Origin: Nitrospirota bacterium
GTDB taxonomy: Bacteria; Nitrospirota; Nitrospiria; SBBL01; JAADHI01
NCBI GenBank assembly: GCA_029261215.1
Contig: JAJDBT010000114.1
Coordinates: forward strand, 1 to 64,000
Length of the DNA: 64,000 nucleotides
Reading direction: 5' to 3'
The notes under the pieces were generated by a model. The model searched no databases, was not told where the DNA came from, and saw nothing but the letters and a program-made list of their open reading frames with translations. Position numbers and translations under genes: made by a program. Below are positions 7,776-26,281 of this stretch, one piece after another (the first letter of the stretch is position 1; every line of letters begins with the position of its first letter).

Positions 7776-8063
7776 TCACTGATGTCTCTCCATTAAGAAA
7801 CAGGGCTCCTCCGGGAGCAATCTTGTGGAAACAACGCCATGCAAGCCTTTTCTACGAAGCGCCCTCAAAAGAGCTTCCGCATACATTTCAGGAACGTCCA
7901 GGCTGATCTGTTTTGAATCCATTTCGAAAAATACCTGTCCTTTGAGAGTTCCTGCGAGGCTGATCATTTTAAGATAATCCTCACAAGTCAACTGACCAAC
8001 ATCTTCTGCCAGCTCAAGGTGAATATGCTTTTCTCGCATTCTTTTACGTTTTTGAACCGCCAT
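7776..8063 (-). CDS. Small conserved-looking hypothetical protein
   Basis: I do not recognise this 95-residue protein. The first 14 residues are very basic (MAVQKRKRMREK). The rest alternates acidic and hydrophobic segments, with no signal peptide, membrane helix or metal motif. A ribosome-binding site (AAGGAGTGAGG) precedes the ATG, and the gene ends at a strong palindromic terminator. It follows the globin gene on the same strand with a 109-base gap that contains an 11-base inverted repeat (8098-8108 and 8155-8165). It is therefore likely the last gene of the porin-cytochrome-globin transcription unit. Function unknown. Confidence 0.6.
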   Translation of the reverse strand: MAVQKRKRMREKHIHLELAEDVGQLTCEDYLKMISLAGTLKGQVFFEMDSKQISLDVPEMYAEALLRALRRKGLHGVVSTRLLPEEPCFLMERHQ

Positions 8064-8172: not shown

Positions 8173-8583
8173 TCAAACATGCACCGCCGCATGTTTCATC
8201 GTCATCGACAAAACAAGGTAGAGTTCGGCCCATGCCGCTTCCACTTCTTCTGTGAACGATTCCCCCAGGCCCTTATTCAAGGTCCAGAGCAAAACCTCAC
8301 CGACAGTGTCGTAATCTTCATCTTTCACACCATAAGTCACATGTCTTCGGCCGAGATCCTCGACCACTGGAATCACACGATCCAGATTTTTTAAACTTAA
8401 AACCAGAATCTGAATCGTCGCCATCAATTTTTTCCCCTGCTCCTTTATATCTGAGGTAAACAGAGGTCTTAAACTTGGGTCCAACTCAAACAAGCGCGTA
8501 TAAAACATTTTCGCCGCTTCGTCCGCAATGGGAACAATGGCTTCAAAACTTTCCTGAACAAGAATAATTTGTCTTGGGGTCAT
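8173..8583 (-). CDS. Single-domain bacterial globin
   Basis: Haem-binding globin of the haemoglobin/flavohaemoglobin globin-domain type, without a reductase domain. Its 136 residues match one globin fold. The proximal histidine is in GRRHVTYGV and a B10 tyrosine is in AAKMFYTRLFELDP. The distal E7 position appears to be glutamine (KEQGKKL), as in Vitreoscilla haemoglobin. Proteins of this type bind oxygen or nitric oxide. A good AGGAG site precedes the ATG. It lies downstream of the haem lipoprotein and 11-haem cytochrome genes on the same strand, which suggests a link to NO or oxygen handling in that pathway. That link is inference. Confidence 0.88.
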   Translation of the reverse strand: MTPRQIILVQESFEAIVPIADEAAKMFYTRLFELDPSLRPLFTSDIKEQGKKLMATIQILVLSLKNLDRVIPVVEDLGRRHVTYGVKDEDYDTVGEVLLWTLNKGLGESFTEEVEAAWAELYLVLSMTMKHAAVHV

Positions 8584-8633: not shown

Positions 8634-9227
8634 TTATGTGCCCAACGGAATACGAATCACCACCCCGCCCATCACATCCCCCAGCTTAAAGTCTGTTTTT
8701 GGACTGTCCTTATGATCGTTGTGGCAGCTGTAACAGGCGGGCGCTACAGCAATATCCGGATAAAGTGCGGTAAAATACTTTTTTCCGCCGAGCGTTTCTT
8801 CCGTGTAATAGCTTTTTCCGGTTTTGTTAATTTCTGCCAAACCGGTTTTTTCGGCTTCTGTTTTGGGTTCATTTTGCTTATTGACCGGCCAAAGCGAAAT
8901 CAGCGAATACGAAAAAGACACTTTGCCACTTTCGGCCACCCTTTCCGCTCCCATCCGAAACATCTGTGCGGGCAAAACCAGGGCCTTGTCATCTTTCCAG
9001 TGCTCGCTGGCCTTGATCACTTTTTCTTCATTTTGCAGCCGGTTTACAATCCATTTGGTATACACCGTCCGGTCCGCTTCCATCACGGCATGCAGTGAAT
9101 CGGCCATCACCTGCGGACTAATGCCAGGGGGGGCGCTTTCCACTTTTGCCGTATTACACGCCGCCATATTGAACGTGACTACGCCAAGCAAGAATAATCT
9201 GGATAATTGCTTCATCTGCTGATTCAT
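8634..9227 (-). CDS. Monohaem c-type lipoprotein, Tll0287-like (DUF3365)
   Basis: A 197-residue exported protein. The N-terminus is a lipoprotein signal ending in MAAC, followed by a Tll0287/DUF3365-like sensor-type haem domain. The single c-haem motif CYSCH lies near residue 168, preceded by a segment typical of the family (YFTALYPDIAVAPACYSCHND). The C-terminus GDVMGGVVIRIPL also fits the family. It is probably anchored in a membrane facing the periplasm. It is the next gene after the 11-haem cytochrome (42-base gap) and may pass electrons or sense redox state. The catalytic role is unknown. Confidence 0.82.
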   Translation of the reverse strand: MNQQMKQLSRLFLLGVVTFNMAACNTAKVESAPPGISPQVMADSLHAVMEADRTVYTKWIVNRLQNEEKVIKASEHWKDDKALVLPAQMFRMGAERVAESGKVSFSYSLISLWPVNKQNEPKTEAEKTGLAEINKTGKSYYTEETLGGKKYFTALYPDIAVAPACYSCHNDHKDSPKTDFKLGDVMGGVVIRIPLGT

Positions 9228-9269: not shown

Positions 9270-10664
9270 TTATAAAGACCGTGAAGATTCACCGCGTCCT
9301 TCTTCCTGTTTTTTCTTTTTTTCGAAAACCCGTTTCTTTGCCCAATCAATGCTTTCGATATGGCGGCGGGGTTTTTCTGAAAAATTCCCTTTAATCAGCG
9401 CGACATCCGCCAGGGCGTCCATTGAAAAACGAAGACCGTGACAATTGAGACAGACCTCCCGAATCATCTTTTCGTTGGGCCGCAGGTTCCAGCTCTGGTT
9501 ATGCTGAACTTGTACCTGATCCACACCCTCCTCCCTATGAACAAAGCGCGGCATATGACAGCTCGCGCAGGAAACACCGCTTCCGGCCTTTTCAGAATCT
9601 GCCGCCTCATTTCGAAACAAAACGAAATGTGGGGAGGTCTCATAGGCCCGACTGTGCTCGTCGTCGTGACAGACAAGGCAGGCGTCGACCGCCGCCTTTC
9701 GGGTATCGAAGGCATGTGCGCCATGACACGACACACAGCCCATCGCCTTTTCCCCGGCATCATCCTTCATTCTCGCTTTCGCGATGTTGGGCGTCATTGC
9801 TGGCAGATCGCTGGCCAAACGCATGCCATGCTTTCCCGATAAAAAGCCTTTTACCTGGGTGTCGTGACAGGTTTTGCAGGCATGTTCATTCGGCGTGTTT
9901 TCCCATGCCTCAAGCCCCGTCTCCTGATTTTTGACTGTATGGCAGTCACTGCAATTCACACCGTTTTTCGCGTGAGCCGTGCCCGACCATTCCGCCATTA
10001 AATGAACATCTGCCTTCATTTCGAAAGAGGCATCGGCCTCAGCTTCAGTAAGCGGAGTAAGCGGGCGATTTGAAACCGGACGCACCGGACTTGTTTTTTT
10101 TCGAATGGCAACTTTTTGAATGGGCAGCATATCCGGCTCATCCGAATGTTTTAAAAGAAAGTCTTCATACAAAGCCCGGTTATCGTGAAAATTGTGACAA
10201 CCACCCGAAGCGCAAGTCTCAAAAGGCAGATCTTTGTGGCTGGGCCGATCCTTCGCGATATCCGCATGGCACAAAAAACAAAAATCCTGAGGCAGGGTCA
10301 CACCCATGGGGCCTGACATGTGAGGGCGATGCTCCCGATGACAGGTCACACAAAAACGGGCATCCAGCTTGGCCACACGCTCCGCATTTCTCGGATCGGT
10401 AAACTTTGATTTTGGATGGGAATCCTCCACAAGTTTCATTTCCTCTCCATGACAACTGATACAAGCGTCCTGCAGGACACCCGCTCCGCCAAAGGCTTTT
10501 TTGTGGCAAAGCGTGCAGGCCATCTCGATTTGATGATGGCCGTGTGTGGTCTCGCCCACCAAATAAATCGACTGATCCTCCCCGGACAGTTTGAGCCCAA
10601 AATACACAGCCATCGCAATACTCATCACACCCCATATCCACACTGTTTTTTTCGTGCGCATCAT
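9270..10664 (-). CDS. Membrane-anchored 11-haem cytochrome c
   Basis: A 464-residue multihaem cytochrome with one N-terminal membrane helix (residues about 7-24) and no clear signal-peptidase site, so it is probably anchored in the inner membrane and faces the periplasm. I count ten CXXCH motifs (for example CTLCH, CISCH, CVTCH, CFLCH, CSDCH, CKTCH, CVSCH, CLVCH, CASCH, CLNCH). One more site, CASGGCH, has CX4CH spacing. It overlaps no catalytic family I know, so an electron-carrier role is most likely. The start is directly after the stop of the flavin/haem-b fusion gene, which strongly suggests that protein is its electron donor. The tail is rich in lysine and glutamate. Confidence 0.88.
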   Translation of the reverse strand: MMRTKKTVWIWGVMSIAMAVYFGLKLSGEDQSIYLVGETTHGHHQIEMACTLCHKKAFGGAGVLQDACISCHGEEMKLVEDSHPKSKFTDPRNAERVAKLDARFCVTCHREHRPHMSGPMGVTLPQDFCFLCHADIAKDRPSHKDLPFETCASGGCHNFHDNRALYEDFLLKHSDEPDMLPIQKVAIRKKTSPVRPVSNRPLTPLTEAEADASFEMKADVHLMAEWSGTAHAKNGVNCSDCHTVKNQETGLEAWENTPNEHACKTCHDTQVKGFLSGKHGMRLASDLPAMTPNIAKARMKDDAGEKAMGCVSCHGAHAFDTRKAAVDACLVCHDDEHSRAYETSPHFVLFRNEAADSEKAGSGVSCASCHMPRFVHREEGVDQVQVQHNQSWNLRPNEKMIREVCLNCHGLRFSMDALADVALIKGNFSEKPRRHIESIDWAKKRVFEKKKKQEEGRGESSRSL

Positions 10665-12635
10665 CTAAAAAAAGTAAACCGACATCATGTGAAAAATAAG
10701 CAGTACAGGTAGCGGCCACGACATATAAATATGCAGCTTATTCCCCCAACGTCGGGCAACAGGTCCAAAATTCGGGTTCATCCTCCCCTCCAGTGCCGCG
10801 ATGCCACCGGCCAGGGTTCCCAGGGCAGTTGCGGCTAAAAAAGACAGCATCAGTGCCAAATTAAGATTTGATCCCAGAGAAAGCCCGGTGTGCAGTACCA
10901 AAATTCCTAACATCAATAACCCGATGATGGTGTGCACCATCCGCCACGCGCCGAAACTGCCCAGTCTAAAAAATTTCAGGCGTTTTTTTGCGGACAACAG
11001 CAAGCTTAAAATCGAAAGCCCCAGCAAGTGATAACCCGTCACTTGTTTCCAAAACCCATCCAGCCACAACGTCTCAAGCTTCCAGGCCCCCTGAACCGTT
11101 TTAGAAAGAGGAATGGACGGAAAACTCAAAACAGTGAAAACCAACACTGCGGCGGCAATTGAAATGCCCAGCAAATTTTTCAAAACAGGCTGCGGCCGTT
11201 TTAAAAACGGGGCACCGCACAAATCGGCCAGGAGCGGCTTACACCCGCCGCACATGCGGGACGCACCCGTTTCCGCCGCCAGTTTTTCAAGGGAGGTGCA
11301 TCCCCCCTGAATCAGGCGGCTGAGCGTCCCGCGTGTAATACCGAGACATTGACAGACCACCGCCGCTTCCGGCCAGGCCAAGACGTGCGATTGTTGATCT
11401 GAATACACCTGACCCGTGTAAAGAAAATGGATCACCTGAAAAATCGAAATCCGGTTCTGACGTTTGACCGCCTCTTGAAGACGACTCAGTTCCGGCCATT
11501 CCCCCAGTACAATCAAACCCCGCAACCCCCCCTGATTCAAAATCAACTTACGATAGATGCCTTCTTTTGAGTTTTGATAGATCGGGTTGCGCAGTAAAAG
11601 TCGGCTTTCCTCATTTTCGACTTCGCCCATACTAAATACCTGGGTTCGGATATTTTTAAGTCGTGTTGCGGAAACCGAACCGGTGAAACGGCTCTCACGC
11701 CTTAATATTGCACCGGCTGCGACTTCGGCCTGCTCCAGGCCCGGAGCCACCAGACGGTAAACCATACCCCGATGTTGTGCGCATTCGCCCACGGCATAGA
11801 CTTGTTTCGCCGAGGTTTCCATATAATCATTCACAATAATGCCCTGGCCTATTCTTAGCCCGGCTGTTTTTGCCAGGCTGGTATTGGCCTGAACACCTGT
11901 GGCAAGAATCAGGGTATCGCAATCAATCGTCTGGCCCTGCCAAAGTTGAACGCCCATCACCTGCTCAACGCCAAAAATGGTTTTAATCCCTTCAGAGAGA
12001 TAAAACTCGATTCCAAGGCGCGTCATTTCTGCCTGCAAAAGACTGCTCGCACGTTTGTCCAGTTGCCGGCTCATCAGGCGAACATTGTGATCCACAAGCG
12101 ATACCGCCGCACCGCCGCCTTGCATCGCCAAAGCGCTTTCCAATCCCAGCGCACCGCCTCCAAGCACGACCATCCCACGACCCGGCTTCCGGCGCTCCAG
12201 GAGCGCTCGGGCATCGTTCAAATTGCGAAAAGTAAACACGCCCGGCAAAGAAATGCCGGGCGTGTAATAACGGCGGGCCGAAGAACCTGTTGCAAGCACC
12301 AGGGCGACATAAGATTCAACACGACCTGCAGCATCGGTGACGGTCTTTGATTTTGGGTCAATGCGGAGCACCGCACATCCACGGCGCTCTAAAACAGACG
12401 CCTCTTTCAAGAGATCACCAGAATAATAAATCGCCTGCTCCGGCACGTCTCCGGCAATAAACTCCGAGAGCCGCGCACGCTGATAAGGCGCATCCGGCTC
12501 ATCCCCGTATATCAAAACGGGCAGATCGGGATTACCCTTTAAAAGCAAGGCCGCCGTGCGCATCCCGACCGGCCCGGCCCCGACAATAATCACCGCCCAT
12601 TTTTTTGGATCGACTGCTTCTTTTTGAATCATCAT
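10665..12635 (-). CDS. FAD/[2Fe-2S]/di-haem-b transmembrane oxidoreductase fusion
   Basis: A 656-residue fusion. Residues about 12-400 are a NirB-like FAD-dependent NAD(P)H oxidoreductase with two dinucleotide-binding motifs (VGAGPVGMRTA near 18, LGGGALGLE near 158) and the FAD motif VYAVGEC near 280. Residues about 425-475 are a BFD-like [2Fe-2S] domain with C428, C430, C462 and C465. Residues about 485-656 form five membrane helices. Helix 3 carries H568-X13-H582 and helix 5 carries H635-X13-H649, the spacing that binds two stacked b haems in ferric reductase/NADPH oxidase proteins. It should carry electrons from cytoplasmic NAD(P)H across the membrane. The next gene is the 11-haem cytochrome. 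It overlaps the upstream gene by four bases (ATGA). The partner and substrate are inferred. Confidence 0.85.
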   Translation of the reverse strand: MMIQKEAVDPKKWAVIIVGAGPVGMRTAALLLKGNPDLPVLIYGDEPDAPYQRARLSEFIAGDVPEQAIYYSGDLLKEASVLERRGCAVLRIDPKSKTVTDAAGRVESYVALVLATGSSARRYYTPGISLPGVFTFRNLNDARALLERRKPGRGMVVLGGGALGLESALAMQGGGAAVSLVDHNVRLMSRQLDKRASSLLQAEMTRLGIEFYLSEGIKTIFGVEQVMGVQLWQGQTIDCDTLILATGVQANTSLAKTAGLRIGQGIIVNDYMETSAKQVYAVGECAQHRGMVYRLVAPGLEQAEVAAGAILRRESRFTGSVSATRLKNIRTQVFSMGEVENEESRLLLRNPIYQNSKEGIYRKLILNQGGLRGLIVLGEWPELSRLQEAVKRQNRISIFQVIHFLYTGQVYSDQQSHVLAWPEAAVVCQCLGITRGTLSRLIQGGCTSLEKLAAETGASRMCGGCKPLLADLCGAPFLKRPQPVLKNLLGISIAAAVLVFTVLSFPSIPLSKTVQGAWKLETLWLDGFWKQVTGYHLLGLSILSLLLSAKKRLKFFRLGSFGAWRMVHTIIGLLMLGILVLHTGLSLGSNLNLALMLSFLAATALGTLAGGIAALEGRMNPNFGPVARRWGNKLHIYMSWPLPVLLIFHMMSVYFF

Positions 12636-13492
12636 TTCACCTGATTTTGCACCAACAATGTTTTCTCGACCTGTTTCCCCTCTGACAGAATGACCGCTTC
12701 ACTCACGGCGGCTCCGGGAAGCACATCTTCCGGAAGGCGTGCATGCTGCTCCAGAATTTCGTAGATGCGTTTAAAGCGGGAAACCTCTTCCTTGGAAGAC
12801 ACCTTTTTCCCGTAATAAATGCCAAACAAGGGGCTGCGCAGAATGAGCGGTCCGCCATCAAAAAGAACAAAATTGATCGGCATTTCGACCTGTTCTGCAC
12901 CAGAAAGGTGCACGTCATCCCACATCGCGATACGCACATCAATCCCGTCCTTCAACTGGTTGCGAATCGTCAGGAGCACTTCCGCATTCAGCAAGTCCAG
13001 CGGGCGAAGAACAAAGATGCGGCGGATGGCAATGCCAGAACAATGCGCCCGCACCTGATCGCGGTAATAGTTTTTCTTTTGCACCTTCCCCATCCAGTCT
13101 GCAATCTCGATGGAGTTAACCGCCCGCACCTCTTTTTTACAATCGGCCAGCGACTGGCTGGCTTCATAATAATATTCGGCTTCCGTCAGCGGGATGGCCC
13201 CCTCGCTCAGCATTTTCAAAAGGCTTTCCGTCATGCCCATGAAACTCCGGCCTTTTGAAGCCCTTACCGGATCATCTAACTGATCCATCAACGCATCCAA
13301 GGGATGCACGGACATAAAGAGTTTCTTGAAACGGTTCTCGATCTGCTCCAGCTTGTGCATAATCAAAGAAACGCTCAGGGCCAGTAACAAACCCACACCA
13401 AAAACGGTATAGGCTTCTTTTTCCATGTGAAGCCCGAAATGAAACGCAAGGGCAATACTCGAAGCCAAAAGAAATTCGATCAAGCTGTGCAT
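12632..13492 (-). CDS. Membrane-anchored protein of unknown function
   Basis: I do not recognise this 286-residue protein. Two hydrophobic helices (residues about 3-22 and 28-45) are followed by a basic, amphipathic linker (HKLEQIENRFKKLF) and a soluble domain of about 220 residues that should lie in the cytoplasm. The soluble part has alternating beta/alpha character with phrases such as IAIRRIFVLRPLDLLN and DGIDVRIAMWDD. These recall PLD-like or sensor-type domains found in bacterial regulators, but no catalytic HKD motif is visible. It overlaps the flavin fusion by four bases, so it is co-translated with it and may be a regulatory or assembly partner. Confidence 0.65.
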   Translation of the reverse strand: MHSLIEFLLASSIALAFHFGLHMEKEAYTVFGVGLLLALSVSLIMHKLEQIENRFKKLFMSVHPLDALMDQLDDPVRASKGRSFMGMTESLLKMLSEGAIPLTEAEYYYEASQSLADCKKEVRAVNSIEIADWMGKVQKKNYYRDQVRAHCSGIAIRRIFVLRPLDLLNAEVLLTIRNQLKDGIDVRIAMWDDVHLSGAEQVEMPINFVLFDGGPLILRSPLFGIYYGKKVSSKEEVSRFKRIYEILEQHARLPEDVLPGAAVSEAVILSEGKQVEKTLLVQNQVK

Positions 13493-13567: not shown

Positions 13568-14890
13568 TTAGAACTTGAGCTCTGCCATGAGCCAAAGCTT
13601 GTCGGTATCGACAGCGGTTCCCCCGCTGTTCGCCGGATCGCTGTTCGCGTTATACTTCGCATACTTAATCCCGACGAGCGTGTGCTCGGAGAGGTTTTTA
13701 AGCGCGAGCAGGTCAAGCTCTGTCCCGTAGTCTATGTCCGCCTTGTCCGAGGTAAAAAGATGATAGACCGCCACCAGCTTCACCCCGACGACATTACCGG
13801 ACAAGGTGAAAAAGAGATCTTCCACGCCGTTGACCGGCGTGACCAGAAATTTATCCGCCCAACCCTGAAAGGCATGCAGGGTGGCCAATGGTGTTTGGAA
13901 GGCATAGGTACCGTCGCCTCCCAACACTTCGTAACTCACTTTAAGCGCCGCGCCTTTCATTGAGGCACCCAATTCTCCAAAGAGGTAATCGGCATCCACC
14001 GTTGCAGGGCCATCCGCATAATCGCTTTGATCGGCATATTCTGCCGTATAGAGCAGTGTCATCCCAGCTCCGACCGGAATTGCCCCATTTAAACGAAGGC
14101 CAAGGGTTTTATTCGACGATAAAGCCACATCATCAAAATCCAGCAAGTAGGCATACGCCGAGGCATTCAAAGCGGGCATGCCGCTGTACGCAAGATTGAC
14201 CAAGTGCGAATCCATGCGAAAATTAGCACTCGGGGCGGCGAGGCTCACCCCGATGTCAGTCGGATGATGCGCCCCAAAAATACGATTGACGTTTTCGAGG
14301 TAAATATAGGTTCCGCTCAAACCCGCCATCGGGCTAAAAGCCAGCCGCAGGGCATCAAAGGTCTGTTCATTTTGCCGCCAGCCGACATTCCCGACAAAAC
14401 GGTCATTGTCGAGCTTGATGCGTTGACGCCCTCCTGTAAGGGTCAGGCCTTCCACACCTGTCCATTGAAGATAGGCCTGGTTCAATTCCGTATCTTCCGG
14501 GTCGGCCACAACGGGGTATTGTGACTTCCCGTTGGCTGAGCTGTTGTACTGCTCATTGCCAATCACCGTGACATCCTCAAATTCGAGAAAACCCGAAACT
14601 CCCATAAACACCCCGGTCTTGTAACCCAAGCGGCTGCGCAGGGTAGAGGCATTGGCATTTTTAGGAAGGCCCGCTTGATCGACCCCCTCGTATCGGTAAC
14701 GCACATCCAGACTCACTTTTCCCGTCGTGAGCGCCTCTGAAAGACTCGCGGCCAAAACAGGAACGGCACTTCCCGCCAGCACCATAAAAACAAACAGGAA
14801 CAACACACTTCGGGAGAATGCCCCTGGGCATTGTTTTTCCTGGGACTTCAACAGGGAGTATTTTGGGGTGATCTCACTTCCTTTTTTCAT
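13568..14890 (-). CDS. Outer-membrane beta-barrel porin, alginate-export-like
   Basis: A 440-residue outer-membrane protein. A signal peptide with an extended N-region ends near VLAASLSEAL (residue about 48). The mature part alternates polar and hydrophobic residues with aromatic girdles, and ends in phenylalanine (LMAELKF) as expected for BAM-dependent barrels. VSLDVRYRYEGVDQ and LTLTGGRQRIKLDNDRFVG resemble the alginate-export porin family. Its role could be solute passage or housing a cytochrome. It is the first gene of the minus-strand operon with the cytochromes. Its leader contains an operator-like palindrome (14980-14999) and a terminator-like hairpin (14918-14970). An AGGAGG site precedes the ATG. 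Confidence 0.85.
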   Translation of the reverse strand: MKKGSEITPKYSLLKSQEKQCPGAFSRSVLFLFVFMVLAGSAVPVLAASLSEALTTGKVSLDVRYRYEGVDQAGLPKNANASTLRSRLGYKTGVFMGVSGFLEFEDVTVIGNEQYNSSANGKSQYPVVADPEDTELNQAYLQWTGVEGLTLTGGRQRIKLDNDRFVGNVGWRQNEQTFDALRLAFSPMAGLSGTYIYLENVNRIFGAHHPTDIGVSLAAPSANFRMDSHLVNLAYSGMPALNASAYAYLLDFDDVALSSNKTLGLRLNGAIPVGAGMTLLYTAEYADQSDYADGPATVDADYLFGELGASMKGAALKVSYEVLGGDGTYAFQTPLATLHAFQGWADKFLVTPVNGVEDLFFTLSGNVVGVKLVAVYHLFTSDKADIDYGTELDLLALKNLSEHTLVGIKYAKYNANSDPANSGGTAVDTDKLWLMAELKF

Positions 14891-20867: not shown

Positions 20868-21797
20868 ATGTTTCAATTTCCCTATCTCATACTCCATCTT
20901 GTCATGATTACCGCAGGAACATACTTCATAGCGGACATGGCAAACCTGACACTGGCCTCTCAGCTTGAGAACCGCTTTGAATCATCCCAGCCCGGGGAAG
21001 GCCCCGACGGACTCCAGGCAAGACCCCCGTTAAGGAACAAAAGGGACGATTACGATGTCATTATTAAAAAAAACATCTTTAATTCGACAAGTAATCCGCT
21101 CGAAAAGCAACAAACAACCTCATTCGTTGCGCAACCTCTTGAGACGGCATCGCTTCCCCCGCTGAACATCAGCCTCATCGGGACAGCACTTTCAGGGAAA
21201 GGTCTTGACCTTGCCATTATCAAAGACCCTAAAGAAAAAGAACAGATGCTCTATCATAAAGGGGATGTCATTGGAGCTTTTTCAGGTGGAGATGCGGCGA
21301 GCAAAGCCAAGATCGTCGAAATTCATCGCAATGAAATTGTATTGCTTCGCGGCGGGAAAAAAGTGGTGCTCAGGGTCGAGGATAAACCTGAAAAAAACAT
21401 CCCTGCACCACGAAGGGTCTCTAAACGAACCACACCCACGCCAAACAGCTCCGGAGACACGATTCGACAGGTTTCAGAAGGTCAGTGGCTTCTTGACCGG
21501 CGGGAATTGGACGATGCGCTCAAAAACCTGCCACAATTGCTGACCAAAGCGAGGGTCATCCCCAGCTTTAAAGACGGGCAGCCGGATGGTTTTCGCATTT
21601 TTGCAATCGCACAAGACAGCCTTTATTCAAAAATCGGCCTCCAGAATGGGGATATCCTCCATCGCATTAATGGGGTCGATGTCAAAAGCCCCCAAAATTT
21701 TATGAAAGTGATTGAACAATTAAAAGATGAAAACCACATCAACGTCGACTTGATGCGAAACAATCAAAAAGAAACCTTTAGTTACGAGATTCGATAA
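20868..21797 (+). CDS. gspC: Type II secretion protein GspC
   Basis: Inner-membrane protein that links the secretin to the inner-membrane platform. One N-terminal membrane helix is followed by a disordered linker and a homology region (residues about 88-165, with LNISLIGTALSG and VLLRGGKKVVLRV) that should bind GspD. The C-terminus is a PDZ-like domain with SKIGLQNGDILHRINGVDV. Length 309 residues is normal. It is the first gene of a 12-gene operon, 9 bases before gspD. The ribosome-binding site is weak (AAAAAG). Confidence 0.88.
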   Translation: MFQFPYLILHLVMITAGTYFIADMANLTLASQLENRFESSQPGEGPDGLQARPPLRNKRDDYDVIIKKNIFNSTSNPLEKQQTTSFVAQPLETASLPPLNISLIGTALSGKGLDLAIIKDPKEKEQMLYHKGDVIGAFSGGDAASKAKIVEIHRNEIVLLRGGKKVVLRVEDKPEKNIPAPRRVSKRTTPTPNSSGDTIRQVSEGQWLLDRRELDDALKNLPQLLTKARVIPSFKDGQPDGFRIFAIAQDSLYSKIGLQNGDILHRINGVDVKSPQNFMKVIEQLKDENHINVDLMRNNQKETFSYEIR

Positions 21798-21806
21798 GGA
21801 CACTGC

Positions 21807-23309
21807 ATGCAATGGCAATTTAAGGCCTCAGAAATATTCTGGGCCATTTTTTTTGTACTATTTTTTTTAGTGCCGCTTCAGGCCCAGGTTGCAGAAGAAG
21901 TCCCTGCTGGACCTCCGGAGATCTCCCGCCTCGAAACAGCCGACCCTGTTTCCAAAAACAATTCAAAAGAAGTCACGCTCGATTTTACCGACGTTGACCT
22001 GCCTGTGTTGGTTAAACTCATCAGCGAACTCACCGGGAAAAACTTTGTCATCGATGAGAAAGTTCGGGGAAAAATCTCTATTATTTCACCGAGCAAAATT
22101 CCAGTGGACCGGGTTTATGATGTCTTTTTGTCCGTATTAGAGTTGAAAGGACTGGCCGTCGTGGAAAGTGGCGAGGTCTATCTCATCCGCCCGTTCGCAG
22201 AGATCGAAGCGGACACCGAGGTTTATGTCTACCAACTGAAAAATATGAAAACCGAAGAAATGGCAAAAGTGCTTCGGGGGCTGGTGGCAAAACCAGCCGG
22301 ACGCCGAAGGAAAAACCAGGCTTCATCCAAAGGCCTGGCAGACCAGGTTCAAATTCTCACAGACAAAGAAACCAACACCCTCATTATCACCGCAACCAAG
22401 GAAGACTACCAAACCCTGACAGAAGTCATCGAAAAACTCGACCAGAAACGCCGGCAGGTCTATGTTGAGGCCATTGTCATGGAACTCTCCGCCGATAAAT
22501 TCAAGGAATTGGGAACGGATATCAGCGGCGCATTTGGCTCAAAAGTGGATGCCTTTGGAAATAATAACCTGGGCCTTTTTGGCGGGGTGAATGGACTGGA
22601 CATTGCCAGCTTAACGGCCGCTGCTGCAAACGGCATCTCAATTGGTGCGGCCAATATTCAACTCATTATCAGGGCGCTCAAATCCTCCTCGGATGTCAAT
22701 ATTCTCTCCACACCGCAAATTTTGACGACAGACAAACAAAAGGCAGAAATTGTCGTCGCGCAGAATGTGCCGTTTCCTGGCGCACAAAGCCAAACCACCG
22801 GCGGCAACGTGCAAACCACCATTGAACGGAAAGACGTCGGAATTATCCTCCGTCTAACGCCCGATGTCCTGGATAACCAGCGGGTCCAGATGGATGTCTA
22901 TCAGGAAATTTCTTCTGTTGTTGAAACGGCACAGACCTCCGATGGCGCAAATCTGGGACCAACAACCAATAAACGCTCCGCCAGTACAACGGTTGTCGTG
23001 GGGGACGGACAAACCGTTGTGATCGGGGGACTGATTCGAGACAATATCATTTCAATTGATCGGAAGGTGCCCTTTTTGGGAGACATTCCATTTTTAGGAT
23101 GGCTGTTCCATTTTAAATCGGATCGCGTCGAAAAGACCAACTTGATGATCTTTCTCACCCCGCACATTATTCTAAATGAGGACGAGTTGTCCGAAATCAA
23201 ACGAAAAAAAGCAAACGAAACAAACTTTTTTATGAGTGAATACATGCCAAAACATCATCAAATAGGAAAAACCACCGCCTTTACCGAGATGATCAATCTG
23301 CCCAAGTAA
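21807..23309 (+). CDS. gspD: Type II secretion outer-membrane secretin GspD
   Basis: Forms the outer-membrane channel of the type II secretion system. A signal peptide (residues about 1-26) precedes an N0 domain (VTLDFTDVDLPVLVKLISEL) and repeated N domains (VYQLKNMKTEEMAKVLRGLV, TLIITATKEDYQTLTEVIE). The secretin core follows, with VYVEAIVMELS, VNILSTPQILT, RLTPDVLDNQRV and the ending VPFLGDIPFLGWLF. At 500 residues it is shorter than many secretins, with one N domain apparently missing. It lies between gspC and gspE. Confidence 0.95.
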   Translation: MQWQFKASEIFWAIFFVLFFLVPLQAQVAEEVPAGPPEISRLETADPVSKNNSKEVTLDFTDVDLPVLVKLISELTGKNFVIDEKVRGKISIISPSKIPVDRVYDVFLSVLELKGLAVVESGEVYLIRPFAEIEADTEVYVYQLKNMKTEEMAKVLRGLVAKPAGRRRKNQASSKGLADQVQILTDKETNTLIITATKEDYQTLTEVIEKLDQKRRQVYVEAIVMELSADKFKELGTDISGAFGSKVDAFGNNNLGLFGGVNGLDIASLTAAAANGISIGAANIQLIIRALKSSSDVNILSTPQILTTDKQKAEIVVAQNVPFPGAQSQTTGGNVQTTIERKDVGIILRLTPDVLDNQRVQMDVYQEISSVVETAQTSDGANLGPTTNKRSASTTVVVGDGQTVVIGGLIRDNIISIDRKVPFLGDIPFLGWLFHFKSDRVEKTNLMIFLTPHIILNEDELSEIKRKKANETNFFMSEYMPKHHQIGKTTAFTEMINLPK

Positions 23310-23353
23310 TCACCCGGTTCCTGAATATGAATCAAAATGCATGAGGTTTTCTT

Positions 23354-25060
23354 TTGATTGCAAAAAAACGCCCGCTCATTGGCGAAATCCTAGTCCAAAA
23401 AGGCGCCATTACCCCGGCTCAAGTCGTCGAAGCCCTGAAGCTTCAAAAAGAAGACGACGGACTGCTTGGCGAAATTCTGCTTCGACAGAAACTGCTCAAA
23501 GAAGAAACCCTTCTGTCAGCCCTCTCCGAACAATGGGACATCCCTTATCTGACGCATTTGGACATCAATGAAATTGACCCGACACTGACTGAAAAAGTCC
23601 CGCTTTCTTTTGCAAAACGGCATCAGTTTCTCCCCATTAAACGTGTCGGAAAGGTCGTCCACTGCGCCACATCAAAACCCCTGAACCTTACCGCACTGGA
23701 TGATTTTCACTTAATGCTCAAGGCTCAAATAGAGCTGTCGATCGCCCCTTCCAGTGAAATCATGCGCTGTATTCATCTCGTTTATGAAATGGCGACAGAA
23801 CGACCTGAAGAAGCCATGTCCGATTTTTCCGGGGGAAACCTCAGCACACTCGCCGAAGAACTCGCAGAACCGGAAGACCTGCTTGATACGGATGACGAAG
23901 CCCCGATGATCCTTTTGGTCAACTCCATCTTTTTTCAGGCGGTTCAGCAGCGTGCTTCCGACATCCATTTTGAACCTTTTGAACGAGAAGTGACCATCCG
24001 CTTTCGTGTAGATGGGGTGCTGTACAACATTTTAAATTCCCCAAAACGCTTGCAGTCCGCCCTGATTTCCCGTGTAAAGATTATGGCGGGCATGAATATC
24101 GCCGAAAAAAGGCTGCCGCAAGATGGACGAATCAGTCTGCGCATCGGTGGCCGGGAAATCGACATTCGTGTCTCCGATGTCCCCACGGCCCACGGGGAGC
24201 GACTCGTTTTGCGTATTTTGGAAAAAACAAATGAATCGCTCAACTTAAATGAAATTGGCCTTTCAAAAAAGGACTTGGGCTCAATGGAGCGTCTCATCCA
24301 AATGGCGCACGGCATCATTCTTGTCACCGGGCCAACGGGCAGCGGAAAAACCACCACCCTGTATTCCGCGCTCAGCCGAATCAATTCTCCGGATAAAAAC
24401 ATTCTCACCATCGAAGACCCGATTGAATATCAACTACAGGGCATCGGGCAAATTCAGGTGAATTCCAAAATAGACCTCACCTTTGCGAACGGGCTTCGTT
24501 CGATCTTGAGGCAAGACCCTGACGTGATTATGATCGGGGAAATTCGGGACGGCGAAACGGCAAACATCGCCATCCACGCCTCGCTGACCGGGCATCTTGT
24601 CTTTTCAACCCTGCACACCAATGACTCGGCCGGTGCCGTCACCCGCCTTGTGGATATGGGCATCGAACCCTTTCTTGTCTCCTCATCTGTCGTCGCCATT
24701 ATCGCCCAGCGACTGGTTCGAAAAATCTGTACAACCTGCCGAAAACCTTACACCCCGACACCGGAAGAATGCAAAAAACTAGGGCTTCCCCCGGAGGGCG
24801 ACTACTCTTTTTTTAAAGGGGCCGGATGTGACAAATGCCTCAATACCGGCTTCAAGGGACGCATGGGGATTTATGAAATTCTGATGGTGGATGATGAGAT
24901 TAGAAACATGATCCTCACAAAAGTGGATTCGGGTCAGATCAAGGCCAAAGCCATCGCGCACGGCATGACAAGCCTTCGGGAAGATGGCGCACAACGGGTG
25001 ATCGCCGGGCTCACCACGACAGAAGAAGTCATTCGCGTGACCCAGGAGGAAAACCTTTAA
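23354..25060 (+). CDS. gspE: Type II secretion ATPase GspE
   Basis: Hexameric cytoplasmic ATPase that drives pseudopilus assembly. The N-terminal GspE domain (residues 1-150) is followed by the ATPase core: Walker A GPTGSGKTTTLYSAL near residue 328, Asp box and Walker B region EDPIEYQLQGI / DPDVIMIGEIRD, and the His box. A CxxC zinc motif pair (CTTC and CDKC) lies near residues 460-495, as in GspE of this class. Length 568 residues is normal. The start is TTG at 23354 with GAGG seven bases upstream. It sits between gspD and gspF. Confidence 0.96.
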   Translation: MIAKKRPLIGEILVQKGAITPAQVVEALKLQKEDDGLLGEILLRQKLLKEETLLSALSEQWDIPYLTHLDINEIDPTLTEKVPLSFAKRHQFLPIKRVGKVVHCATSKPLNLTALDDFHLMLKAQIELSIAPSSEIMRCIHLVYEMATERPEEAMSDFSGGNLSTLAEELAEPEDLLDTDDEAPMILLVNSIFFQAVQQRASDIHFEPFEREVTIRFRVDGVLYNILNSPKRLQSALISRVKIMAGMNIAEKRLPQDGRISLRIGGREIDIRVSDVPTAHGERLVLRILEKTNESLNLNEIGLSKKDLGSMERLIQMAHGIILVTGPTGSGKTTTLYSALSRINSPDKNILTIEDPIEYQLQGIGQIQVNSKIDLTFANGLRSILRQDPDVIMIGEIRDGETANIAIHASLTGHLVFSTLHTNDSAGAVTRLVDMGIEPFLVSSSVVAIIAQRLVRKICTTCRKPYTPTPEECKKLGLPPEGDYSFFKGAGCDKCLNTGFKGRMGIYEILMVDDEIRNMILTKVDSGQIKAKAIAHGMTSLREDGAQRVIAGLTTTEEVIRVTQEENL

Positions 25061-25063
25061 ACA

Positions 25064-26281
25064 ATGGCAGTCTTTGAATACAAGGGACTGGATGTTCGAG
25101 GAAAAAACACCGCCGGCGTCATTGATGCCGACAATCCACGGCAGGCCCGATCCAAACTACGTCAAAGCGGAATTTTCCCCACCGAAGTCATGTCAGCAAA
25201 AGCCGCCGCCGCAGTTCAGGACCGGGAGGCGTTTTCCTTTGGCCAGGGCATTTCGCTTTCGGATACCGCACTTGCGACCCGCCAAATGTCAACGCTGCTT
25301 GGTGCTGGCCTGTCAATTATGGAGAGCCTGGCCGCACTGATTGAACAAACCGAAAACAAGGCCGGAAAAAAAATATGGGTCGATGTGCGGGAAGGGGTCA
25401 AGGAAGGCGGCACCCTTGCGGATGCCCTGAGTCGCCACCCCAAAATCTTTTCCACCCTCTATTGCCAAATGGTTCGCGCCGGAGAGGCGAGCGGTGCACT
25501 CGATCAAATCCTGCTTCGTCTCGCAGACTACCTCGAAAATCAGGTGAGATTACGCGGAAAGATTTTTTCGATGATGACCTATCCTGTTTTGATGATGGTT
25601 GTCAGCATGTTGATTTTGCTTTTTTTGGTCGCTTACGTCGTACCTAAAGTCACCTCTATTTTTGATGATTTAAATCAGGCGCTACCCTTGCCAACGATTA
25701 TCTTGCTGTCCATCAGTGATTTCATTCAGAGTTACGGGTGGCTTGTCTTTCTCATCATCGCCCTGGGGGTGTTCTTTTTAAAACGACATATCAATACCCC
25801 CGTTGGACGGGAAAAATATGACCGGATTTCACTGAAGCTGCCCCTGATTGGCCGGGTCGTTAAAATGGTGGCCATTTCACGCTTTACCAAAACACTGTCT
25901 ACGCTGCTGGCCAGTGGCGTAGAACTTTTAAAAGCACTTGAAATTGTACAGGAAGTCGTGGGAAATAAAGTCCTCGAAGAAACCATACAGGAAGCACGCG
26001 GCAATATTCGAGAAGGAGAGGCCATTGCCGACCCACTTAAACGCAGTGGTCTTTTTCCGCCCCTGGTAACCCATATGATCAGCATCGGGGAAAAAAGCGG
26101 GGAGCTTGAAAATATGCTTCAAAAAGTTTCAGAGGCCTACGACAACGAGGTTGAAAACGTGGTGACCGGGATGACGTCTCTCCTGGGGCCGCTGATGATT
26201 TTGGGGATGGGATTCGCTATCCTGTTTATTGTGCTGGCGATCTTGCTGCCGATCTTTGAAGTAAGTCAAATGGTAGGATAG
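25064..26281 (+). CDS. gspF: Type II secretion inner-membrane protein GspF
   Basis: Polytopic inner-membrane platform protein that contacts GspE and GspL. The opening phrase MAVFEYKGLDVRGKNTAGVIDADNP-type start is diagnostic of the PulF/PilC family. Two GspF domains follow (residues about 70-190 and 270-390), each with a cytoplasmic helical bundle and membrane helices, including TYPVLMMVVSMLILLFLVAYV. The C-terminus ends IFIVLAILLPIFEVSQMVG, typical of the family. Length 405 residues is normal. It starts four bases after gspE. Confidence 0.96.
   Translation: MAVFEYKGLDVRGKNTAGVIDADNPRQARSKLRQSGIFPTEVMSAKAAAAVQDREAFSFGQGISLSDTALATRQMSTLLGAGLSIMESLAALIEQTENKAGKKIWVDVREGVKEGGTLADALSRHPKIFSTLYCQMVRAGEASGALDQILLRLADYLENQVRLRGKIFSMMTYPVLMMVVSMLILLFLVAYVVPKVTSIFDDLNQALPLPTIILLSISDFIQSYGWLVFLIIALGVFFLKRHINTPVGREKYDRISLKLPLIGRVVKMVAISRFTKTLSTLLASGVELLKALEIVQEVVGNKVLEETIQEARGNIREGEAIADPLKRSGLFPPLVTHMISIGEKSGELENMLQKVSEAYDNEVENVVTGMTSLLGPLMILGMGFAILFIVLAILLPIFEVSQMVG

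Follow-up and report, generated by a model that had tools for sequence, protein, structure and literature searches.

The window, by which we mean the whole 64,000-nucleotide stretch of Nitrospirota DNA analysed here, carries on its minus strand a gene in which one open frame fills positions 10665 to 12635; the plus strand of this span is broken by many stops. The gene encodes a fusion of a NirB-like flavin head, a BFD-like [2Fe-2S] domain and a membrane part:

10665-12635, minus strand: fused FAD / BFD [2Fe-2S] / four-histidine membrane protein, 656 aa
11718-12596, minus strand: Pyr_redox_2 FAD/NAD domain, residues 14-306 (Pfam 175 bits, cut-off 26.1)
11457-11669, minus strand: Rubredoxin_C-type interface domain, residues 323-393 (Pfam 45.4 bits, cut-off 25.9)
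11223-11360, minus strand: BFD-like [2Fe-2S] domain (Fer2_BFD, PF04324), residues 426-471 (Pfam 36.2 bits, cut-off 26)
10668-11210, minus strand: five-helix membrane part, residues 476-656 (histidine positions, AlphaFold2 helices, conservation)
10932-10934, minus strand: codon of H568, putative cytoplasmic-side haem b ligand (42/42 rows)
10890-10892, minus strand: codon of H582, putative periplasmic-side haem b ligand (42/42 rows)
10731-10733, minus strand: codon of H635, putative cytoplasmic-side haem b ligand (42/42 rows)
10689-10691, minus strand: codon of H649, putative periplasmic-side haem b ligand (42/42 rows)

The flavin part belongs to the PF07992 fold, both by its Pfam score and by its match to 3ef6, the best found in a fold search with an AlphaFold2 model (Z 39.0, 2.5 A over 389 residues). 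It is of the BphA4/NirB type, with the fold of the toluene/biphenyl dioxygenase ferredoxin reductases, and the matches of whole-model fold searches were filled by this domain (residues 11-415). The model of the fused protein, built from a 12-sequence alignment (A3), has a mean pLDDT of 79, and the membrane part, taken in blocks of ten, has values of 44-77. NCBIfam gives NirB as the top match (TIGR02374, 329.2 bits, positions 2-465 of 794); as this lies below the cut-off of 578.35 bits and the sirohaem half is missing, the protein was rejected as a NirB nitrite reductase. In the NAD site, an acidic residue closing the second strand signals NADH rather than NADPH. Since this position is D or E in 11 of the 12 A3 rows, NADH appears to be favoured. 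The [2Fe-2S] cluster is probably held by C428, C430, C462 and C465, which are kept in 40-41 of 42 aligned rows. The exceptions, L077 and L089, retain the membrane part and the gene for its cytochrome partner (described below) and lack the flavin/BFD half; the stretch preceding the membrane part has no Pfam match in L077. At L089 (7486-8736), a GPP34 (Golgi phosphoprotein 3-like) domain of 144.4 bits stands N-terminally in place of the flavin and BFD domains. These 42 rows were drawn from 43 loci, one of which has no fused gene or membrane part.

An earlier note on this DNA, which did not give the strand, had read the histidine pairs H568-X13-H582 and H635-X13-H649 in helices 3 and 5 of a five-helix C-terminus, preceded by NirB-type flavin and BFD-like domains. 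The spacings are exact in the 656-aa translation, the order of domains is that of the Pfam matches above cut-off, and the AlphaFold2 helices (484-504, 520-551, 561-583, 591-618, and 623-639 with 641-655) agree, placing H568 and H582 in helix 3 and H635 and H649 in helix 5. These four residues are identical in 42/42 aligned relatives. The protein's other histidines are at 183, 288, 403, 417 and 536, and none of them is invariant among the 42 rows; H536, also in the membrane part, is found in 2. In the alignment of relatives, lysine plus arginine averages 4.67 and 4.05 in the inner loops and 2.5, 0.88 and 0.24 in the outer segments. By the positive-inside pattern the fused protein would therefore be oriented N-in, C-out, with the flavin head and H568/H635 towards the cytoplasm and H582/H649 towards the outside. 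Because helices 3 and 5 are parallel and both spacings are x13, the pairs would lie at equal depths.

The same note had taken this spacing as that of ferric reductases and NADPH oxidases. The x13/x13 pattern holds, but it is not a unique match, as bc1-type cytochrome b shares it and NADPH oxidases have x13/x12. Ferric reductases and NADPH oxidases (PF01794) resemble the membrane part in having two helices, each with two histidines about 13 residues apart. However, their flavin domain follows the membrane part, whereas here the head is N-terminal and of another fold, and the chain ends at residue 656 after helix 5, with no C-terminal FAD/NAD(P) domain. The likeness to NADPH oxidases is an analogy only.

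Pfam searches with 3, then 12 members of the membrane part gave only sub-threshold matches, and no unrelated transporter family, a possibility raised in the earlier note, came up. DUF4405 was matched by 6/12 members (best 0.0014). Two candidate families were rejected as below cut-off: prokaryotic cytochrome b561 (PF01292, cut-off 30.1 bits; 3/12 members, best 0.01) and Ferric_reduct (PF01794, cut-off 28 bits; 2/12 members, best E 0.0073). The window's own member had no Ferric_reduct match at E up to 1. An NCBIfam search of the membrane part found nothing relevant, and profiles A2 and A5, both of the membrane part, had no match among PDB sequences. Comparison by hhalign with E. coli MsrQ, a true Ferric_reduct protein by our control (60.5 bits), gave 0.1% probability, and a profile comparison with E. 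coli YodB found no similarity, each being a single sequence and so a weak comparator. Two stand-alone membrane proteins did match the membrane-part profile, at L040 (E 3.3e-9, 70 columns) and L032 (E 2.8e-6, 74 columns), and these A5 matches (G592 and G152, respectively) were counted as distant relatives, not as cassettes. The proteins of L040/L090 and L032/L091 share with the membrane part the profile match around helices 2-4 and the H-x13-H motif twice, but have no flavin or BFD fusion and have a long loop before the last helix. These matches suggest that the membrane part belongs to a wider four-histidine family, as yet without a name, whose partners vary. At L090 (7675-12903) the stand-alone relative lies near a cNMP/4Fe-4S protein and genes that by eye are NuoEF-like, possibly another NADH-to-membrane route. 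At L091 (3-4159) the four-histidine protein lies between genes for 4-haem and 10-haem cytochromes.

The fused gene has neighbours on the same strand that the earlier note did not mention, namely an 11-haem c cytochrome, a Tll0287-like haem protein and, usually, a globin. These three and the fused gene are called the cassette below; the last two features listed are local accessories:

9270-10664, minus strand: membrane-anchored 11-haem c cytochrome, 10 CxxCH and 1 CX4CH (motif reading, conservation)
8634-9227, minus strand: Tll0287-like (PF11845, DUF3365, haem Cache) one-haem protein (Pfam 78.1 bits, cut-off 24.1)
8173-8583, minus strand: single-domain globin (PF00042; Pfam 59 bits, cut-off 22)
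12632-13492, minus strand: probably membrane-anchored protein, 286 aa, overlapping the start of the fused gene by 4 bases
13568-14890, minus strand: outer-membrane porin (Alginate_exp; Pfam 34.2 bits, cut-off 25.2)

The 11-haem gene starts directly after the stop codon of the fused gene. None of its 43 copies (one, L088, cut by Ns) contains CxxCK. Besides 11 motif histidines the protein has 12 conserved non-motif histidines; 22 of these 23 are present in 42/42 copies and the other, His173, in 39, L088 being left out of this count because a run of N cuts the gene. With histidines enough for bis-His haems throughout and no CxxCK, the protein reads best as an electron wire. It has a DmsE-type resemblance in NCBIfam, where its NrfA score is 31.8 against a cut-off of 595. 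Among PDB sequences its profile (A4) matched NrfA (1.8e-8) and an eight-haem nitrite reductase (2.8e-7) over short stretches only. The similarity to these enzymes is thus distant, and the protein differs from them in having no CxxCK haem, in its 11 sites and in its N-terminal membrane anchor. The AlphaFold2 model is poor (pLDDT 52), and Foldseek with it returned nothing below E 1. Because of this model and the missing CxxCK, no catalytic haem was assigned. Placing the NrfA catalytic histidine by hand was abandoned as ambiguous, since two haem pairs both resemble the same NrfA pair.

The Tll0287-like protein is probably exported. The C, C and H of its CxxCH motif are present in 41/41 copies, and among these copies there is no conserved cysteine beyond the two of the motif that could act as distal ligand. 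Met89 is found in 39/41 and Met186 in 38/41, and the sixth haem ligand may be Met or another residue. In this the protein is unlike those stand-alone Tll0287-type relatives for which the available part of PMC12889525 describes Cys/His haem ligation. According to the same part of that source, NO is bound by a haem Cache domain from this Pfam family that is joined to signalling parts, and weakly by a stand-alone protein; NO is therefore a candidate only.

The PDB chains nearest to the globin are 3wfw and 3s1i. After it, a 95-aa frame (7776-8063, minus strand) has no family match and a possible counterpart at L011 (12124-12429). The protein of 12632-13492 has no Pfam or NCBIfam match and is present in 3/43 loci, its only relatives beyond the window being at L010 (49%) and L011 (81%). 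The porin adjoins the cassette in 6/43 loci (the window and 5 others) and was not found in 37/43. Type II secretion genes (GspC-like, secretin, ATPase and GspF-like), ordinary in kind, lie near the cassette on the plus strand (20868-26278).

Related loci were collected with three profiles. A2, a profile of 3 sequences, picked out 11 loci among named genomes in the first scan, all 11 with the four cassette genes. Profile A5 matched 11/103 genomes of one Hyphomicrobiaceae family (one a distant relative), 3/395 Nitrospirota genomes and 5/248 genomes of the class of the Phycisphaera locus (again with one distant relative); the 10 new loci from A5 all have the four genes in the same order, with the fused gene in L045 cut by a contig end. 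The cytochrome profile A4 matched 26/369 genomes, 27 matches in all, in the class of the gammaproteobacterial locus L015. We read 20 of these as neighbourhoods; G061 was L015 already, and G813, G928, G1033, G775, G817 and the other match of G945 were left out. Duplicates were counted once (L007/L009/L033 = L011; L008/L035 = L010; L022 = L019; L023 = L018; L024 = L021; L036 = L012; L055 = L015), while L018 and L019, near copies, were both counted. The resulting 43 loci hold the cytochrome in 43 (present by construction in the last 20, which were fetched by it), the fused protein or membrane part in 42, the Tll0287-like gene (tll) in 41 and the globin in 33. Membrane part, 11-haem cytochrome and tll occur together in 41/43, the two loci without tll being a lone cytochrome (L087) and the N-gapped L088, and a haem c partner adjoins the membrane part in 42/42 loci that have one. 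At L083, L084, L085 and L086 the stretch read holds the other three genes and no globin. A one-haem cytochrome c gene adjoins tll in 10/43 loci, usually between tll and the globin (L015, L017, L048, L070, L071, L074, L075, L081, L082 and L083); a similar small cytochrome is present at L049 and, judged by eye, at L050.

Pairwise distances of the FAD part, membrane part, cytochrome, tll and globin correlate with one another (Pearson 0.62-0.81, 32-38 loci, uncorrected for relatedness, with L045, L077 and L087-L089 left out). The cassette was found in at least four phyla. In the cytochrome tree, which has several open forks, two changes are needed to account for the Nitrospiria rows, and G023 does not group with the window pair, a pattern that fits transfer of the cassette between phyla. 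A PLSDB search with the membrane part only found no plasmid copy.

The neighbourhood points to nitrate use. Blast with the neighbours of G023 and other loci placed an NrtA-type binding protein within the stretch read at 13/43 loci, and at least one of binding protein, ABC parts, ANTAR regulator, NarK, NirB and NasA at 16/43; weak matches, including an ANTAR-like one at L088, were dropped by identity and score limits, and 27/43 loci have no nitrate neighbour. With about 17 kb read per locus, genomes of about 4 Mb and 0-3 binding proteins per genome, chance would give less than one binding-protein neighbour in 43 loci, the loci not being independent. At least one NrtA-type binding protein is encoded in 36/42 carrier genomes. 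The nitrate-use neighbours span Nitrospiria, Gammaproteobacteria, Muproteobacteria, Verrucomicrobiales, Hyphomicrobiaceae and one unassigned bacterium. At L072 a single strand reads ANTAR, globin, fused gene, 11-haem cytochrome, tll, binding protein, permease, ATPase, NirB, NasA. By Pfam, the three binding proteins tried (L010, L013 and L016) were all over the NMT1_2 cut-off and a neighbour in L013 has an ANTAR domain; the ntrB-like permease of L014 (145.7 bits, cut-off 209) and the NarK-family transporter of L010 (250 bits, cut-off 311.7) are, like NMT1_2, family-level names. The window's genome (G000) and its sister (G002) had no match to the NrtA-type binding protein, so the link to nitrate belongs to the cassette family and not to the window. 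The window's genome does have a full-length NirB-like frame beside a NasA/Fdh-like molybdenum reductase, which falls short of the formate dehydrogenase cut-off and of that for assimilatory nitrate reductase. Since NirB is already present, nitrite assimilation needs no cassette in this cell. The idea that the cassette replaces NirB as a general rule was dropped, as NIR_SIR matches were found in 13/13 genomes tested.

We propose, giving it an even chance of being right, that the cassette is a transmembrane NADH:cytochrome c electron exporter, most likely for reductive nitrite or NO handling. NADH would reduce FAD in the cytoplasmic NirB-like head, and the electrons would move on through the BFD [2Fe-2S] cluster to a cytoplasmic-side haem b (H568/H635), then across to a periplasmic-side haem b (H582/H649) and on to the membrane-anchored 11-haem cytochrome. 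The Tll0287-like protein may exchange electrons with this cytochrome, as may a one-haem cytochrome c in some lineages, while the globin would act on the cytoplasmic side. The cassette would most likely serve nitrate-importing and nitrate-assimilating cells in the reductive handling of nitrite or NO. We infer the cofactors, topology, electron direction and substrate from sequence and models. Passing electrons outward from NADH is downhill, lowers the membrane potential and saves no energy, in keeping with a role in detoxification or assimilation and not in respiration. Counting against the proposal are the lack of an NrtA-type binding protein in the window's genome and its sister, the 27/43 loci that have no nitrate neighbour, the NirB that this cell already has, the 11-haem protein in which no catalytic haem could be placed, the weak NO binding of a stand-alone Tll0287-type protein, and the two loci (L077 and L089) without the flavin half. 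The earlier note had seen in the fusion an independent solution to transmembrane NAD(P)H oxidation. A separate route of this kind is plausible, because the membrane part does not demonstrably belong to the ferric reductases and the head precedes four invariant histidines, but the protein is not a free-standing oxidase: the cassette with its 11-haem cytochrome is conserved, and the wire from the fused protein therefore most likely ends in periplasmic haem c.

Several other readings bear on this proposal. The same chain might run inward, from periplasmic cytochromes by way of both haems b into the [2Fe-2S]/FAD head and on to NAD+ or a cytoplasmic nitrate or nitrite reductase. The head does resemble the electron-entry half of NirB (TIGR02374, 329 bits), cassettes lie beside NasA or NirB in L013, L072 and L080, and the distant relative at L090 adjoins a 4Fe-4S protein and a NuoEF-like module. 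However, such flow would oppose the membrane potential and require a low-potential donor, and none was identified; we regard it as unlikely. To the same degree we doubt that the 11-haem cytochrome itself reduces nitrite to ammonia in the periplasm with NADH electrons supplied by the fused protein. The profile matches to NrfA and the eight-haem enzyme and the nitrate-use neighbours speak for such a role, but those matches are short, the NrfA score is under its cut-off, CxxCK is lacking in every copy, and 12 non-motif histidines for 11 haems leave little need for an open haem. Somewhat less probable still is a conduit for extracellular electron transfer or metal redox with the porin as its outer-membrane part: a porin beside the cassette at six loci, the window included, and a multihaem cytochrome with DmsE-type resemblance are consistent with it, yet most loci show no porin and the nitrate-use neighbours would be left unexplained.

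Two further readings narrow the role of the membrane part or change its acceptor. The head could serve mainly to re-reduce the cytoplasmic globin for NO removal, with the membrane part a mere anchor, as the globin's presence at 33/43 loci might suggest, together with the narK-bjgb-flp-nasC operon of Bradyrhizobium, in which Flp is thought to re-reduce Bjgb (PMC4724949, in the part available). We consider this quite improbable, as it explains neither the four invariant histidines nor the constant 11-haem partner, and L083-L086 keep the other three genes with no globin in the stretch read. Least probable of all would be an NADPH-oxidase- or ferric-reductase-like enzyme passing electrons to oxygen or ferric iron outside. 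It has in its favour the two H-x13-H helices and the weak Ferric_reduct match of two members; against it, every Ferric_reduct score is below cut-off, the MsrQ comparison failed, and a haem c partner adjoins the membrane part wherever the latter occurs.

Returning to the electron exporter, its head has the FAD, Rubredoxin_C and BFD order of the NADH diaphorase half of NirB/NasC-type enzymes, to which NirB positions 2-465 align, but a membrane part takes the place of the sirohaem half (329 bits vs. a cut-off of 578). The nearest functional parallel to the cassette is the NO-protecting nitrate operon of Bradyrhizobium, narK-bjgb-flp-nasC, in which a globin and a flavoprotein detoxify NO (PMC4724949). 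Globin, NAD(P)H flavoprotein and nitrate genes form one unit there as well, under NasT control; however, the available part of that paper reports no membrane part and no haem c, and Flp is of the cytoplasmic type. A literature search over titles and the beginnings of abstracts, itself weak evidence of absence, found no description of the fusion or the cassette, and the gene set seems to be previously undescribed. More tentatively, and with less than even confidence, we suggest that the cassette is a horizontally spread N-oxide module of nitrate-assimilation operons, in which an NADH-driven transmembrane flavocytochrome would power a periplasmic nitrite/NO reductase made of the 11-haem and haem-Cache proteins. 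The membrane part would then represent a new di-haem b family whose input partners are a NirB/BFD head, NuoEF-type neighbours or none.

To our knowledge, few protein types move NADH electrons straight across a membrane without quinone. If the proposal is correct, the cassette would give bacteria an added route for spending NADH outside the cytoplasm on nitrogen oxides, and would provide a testable function for an unnamed membrane family and an unnamed 11-haem cytochrome.
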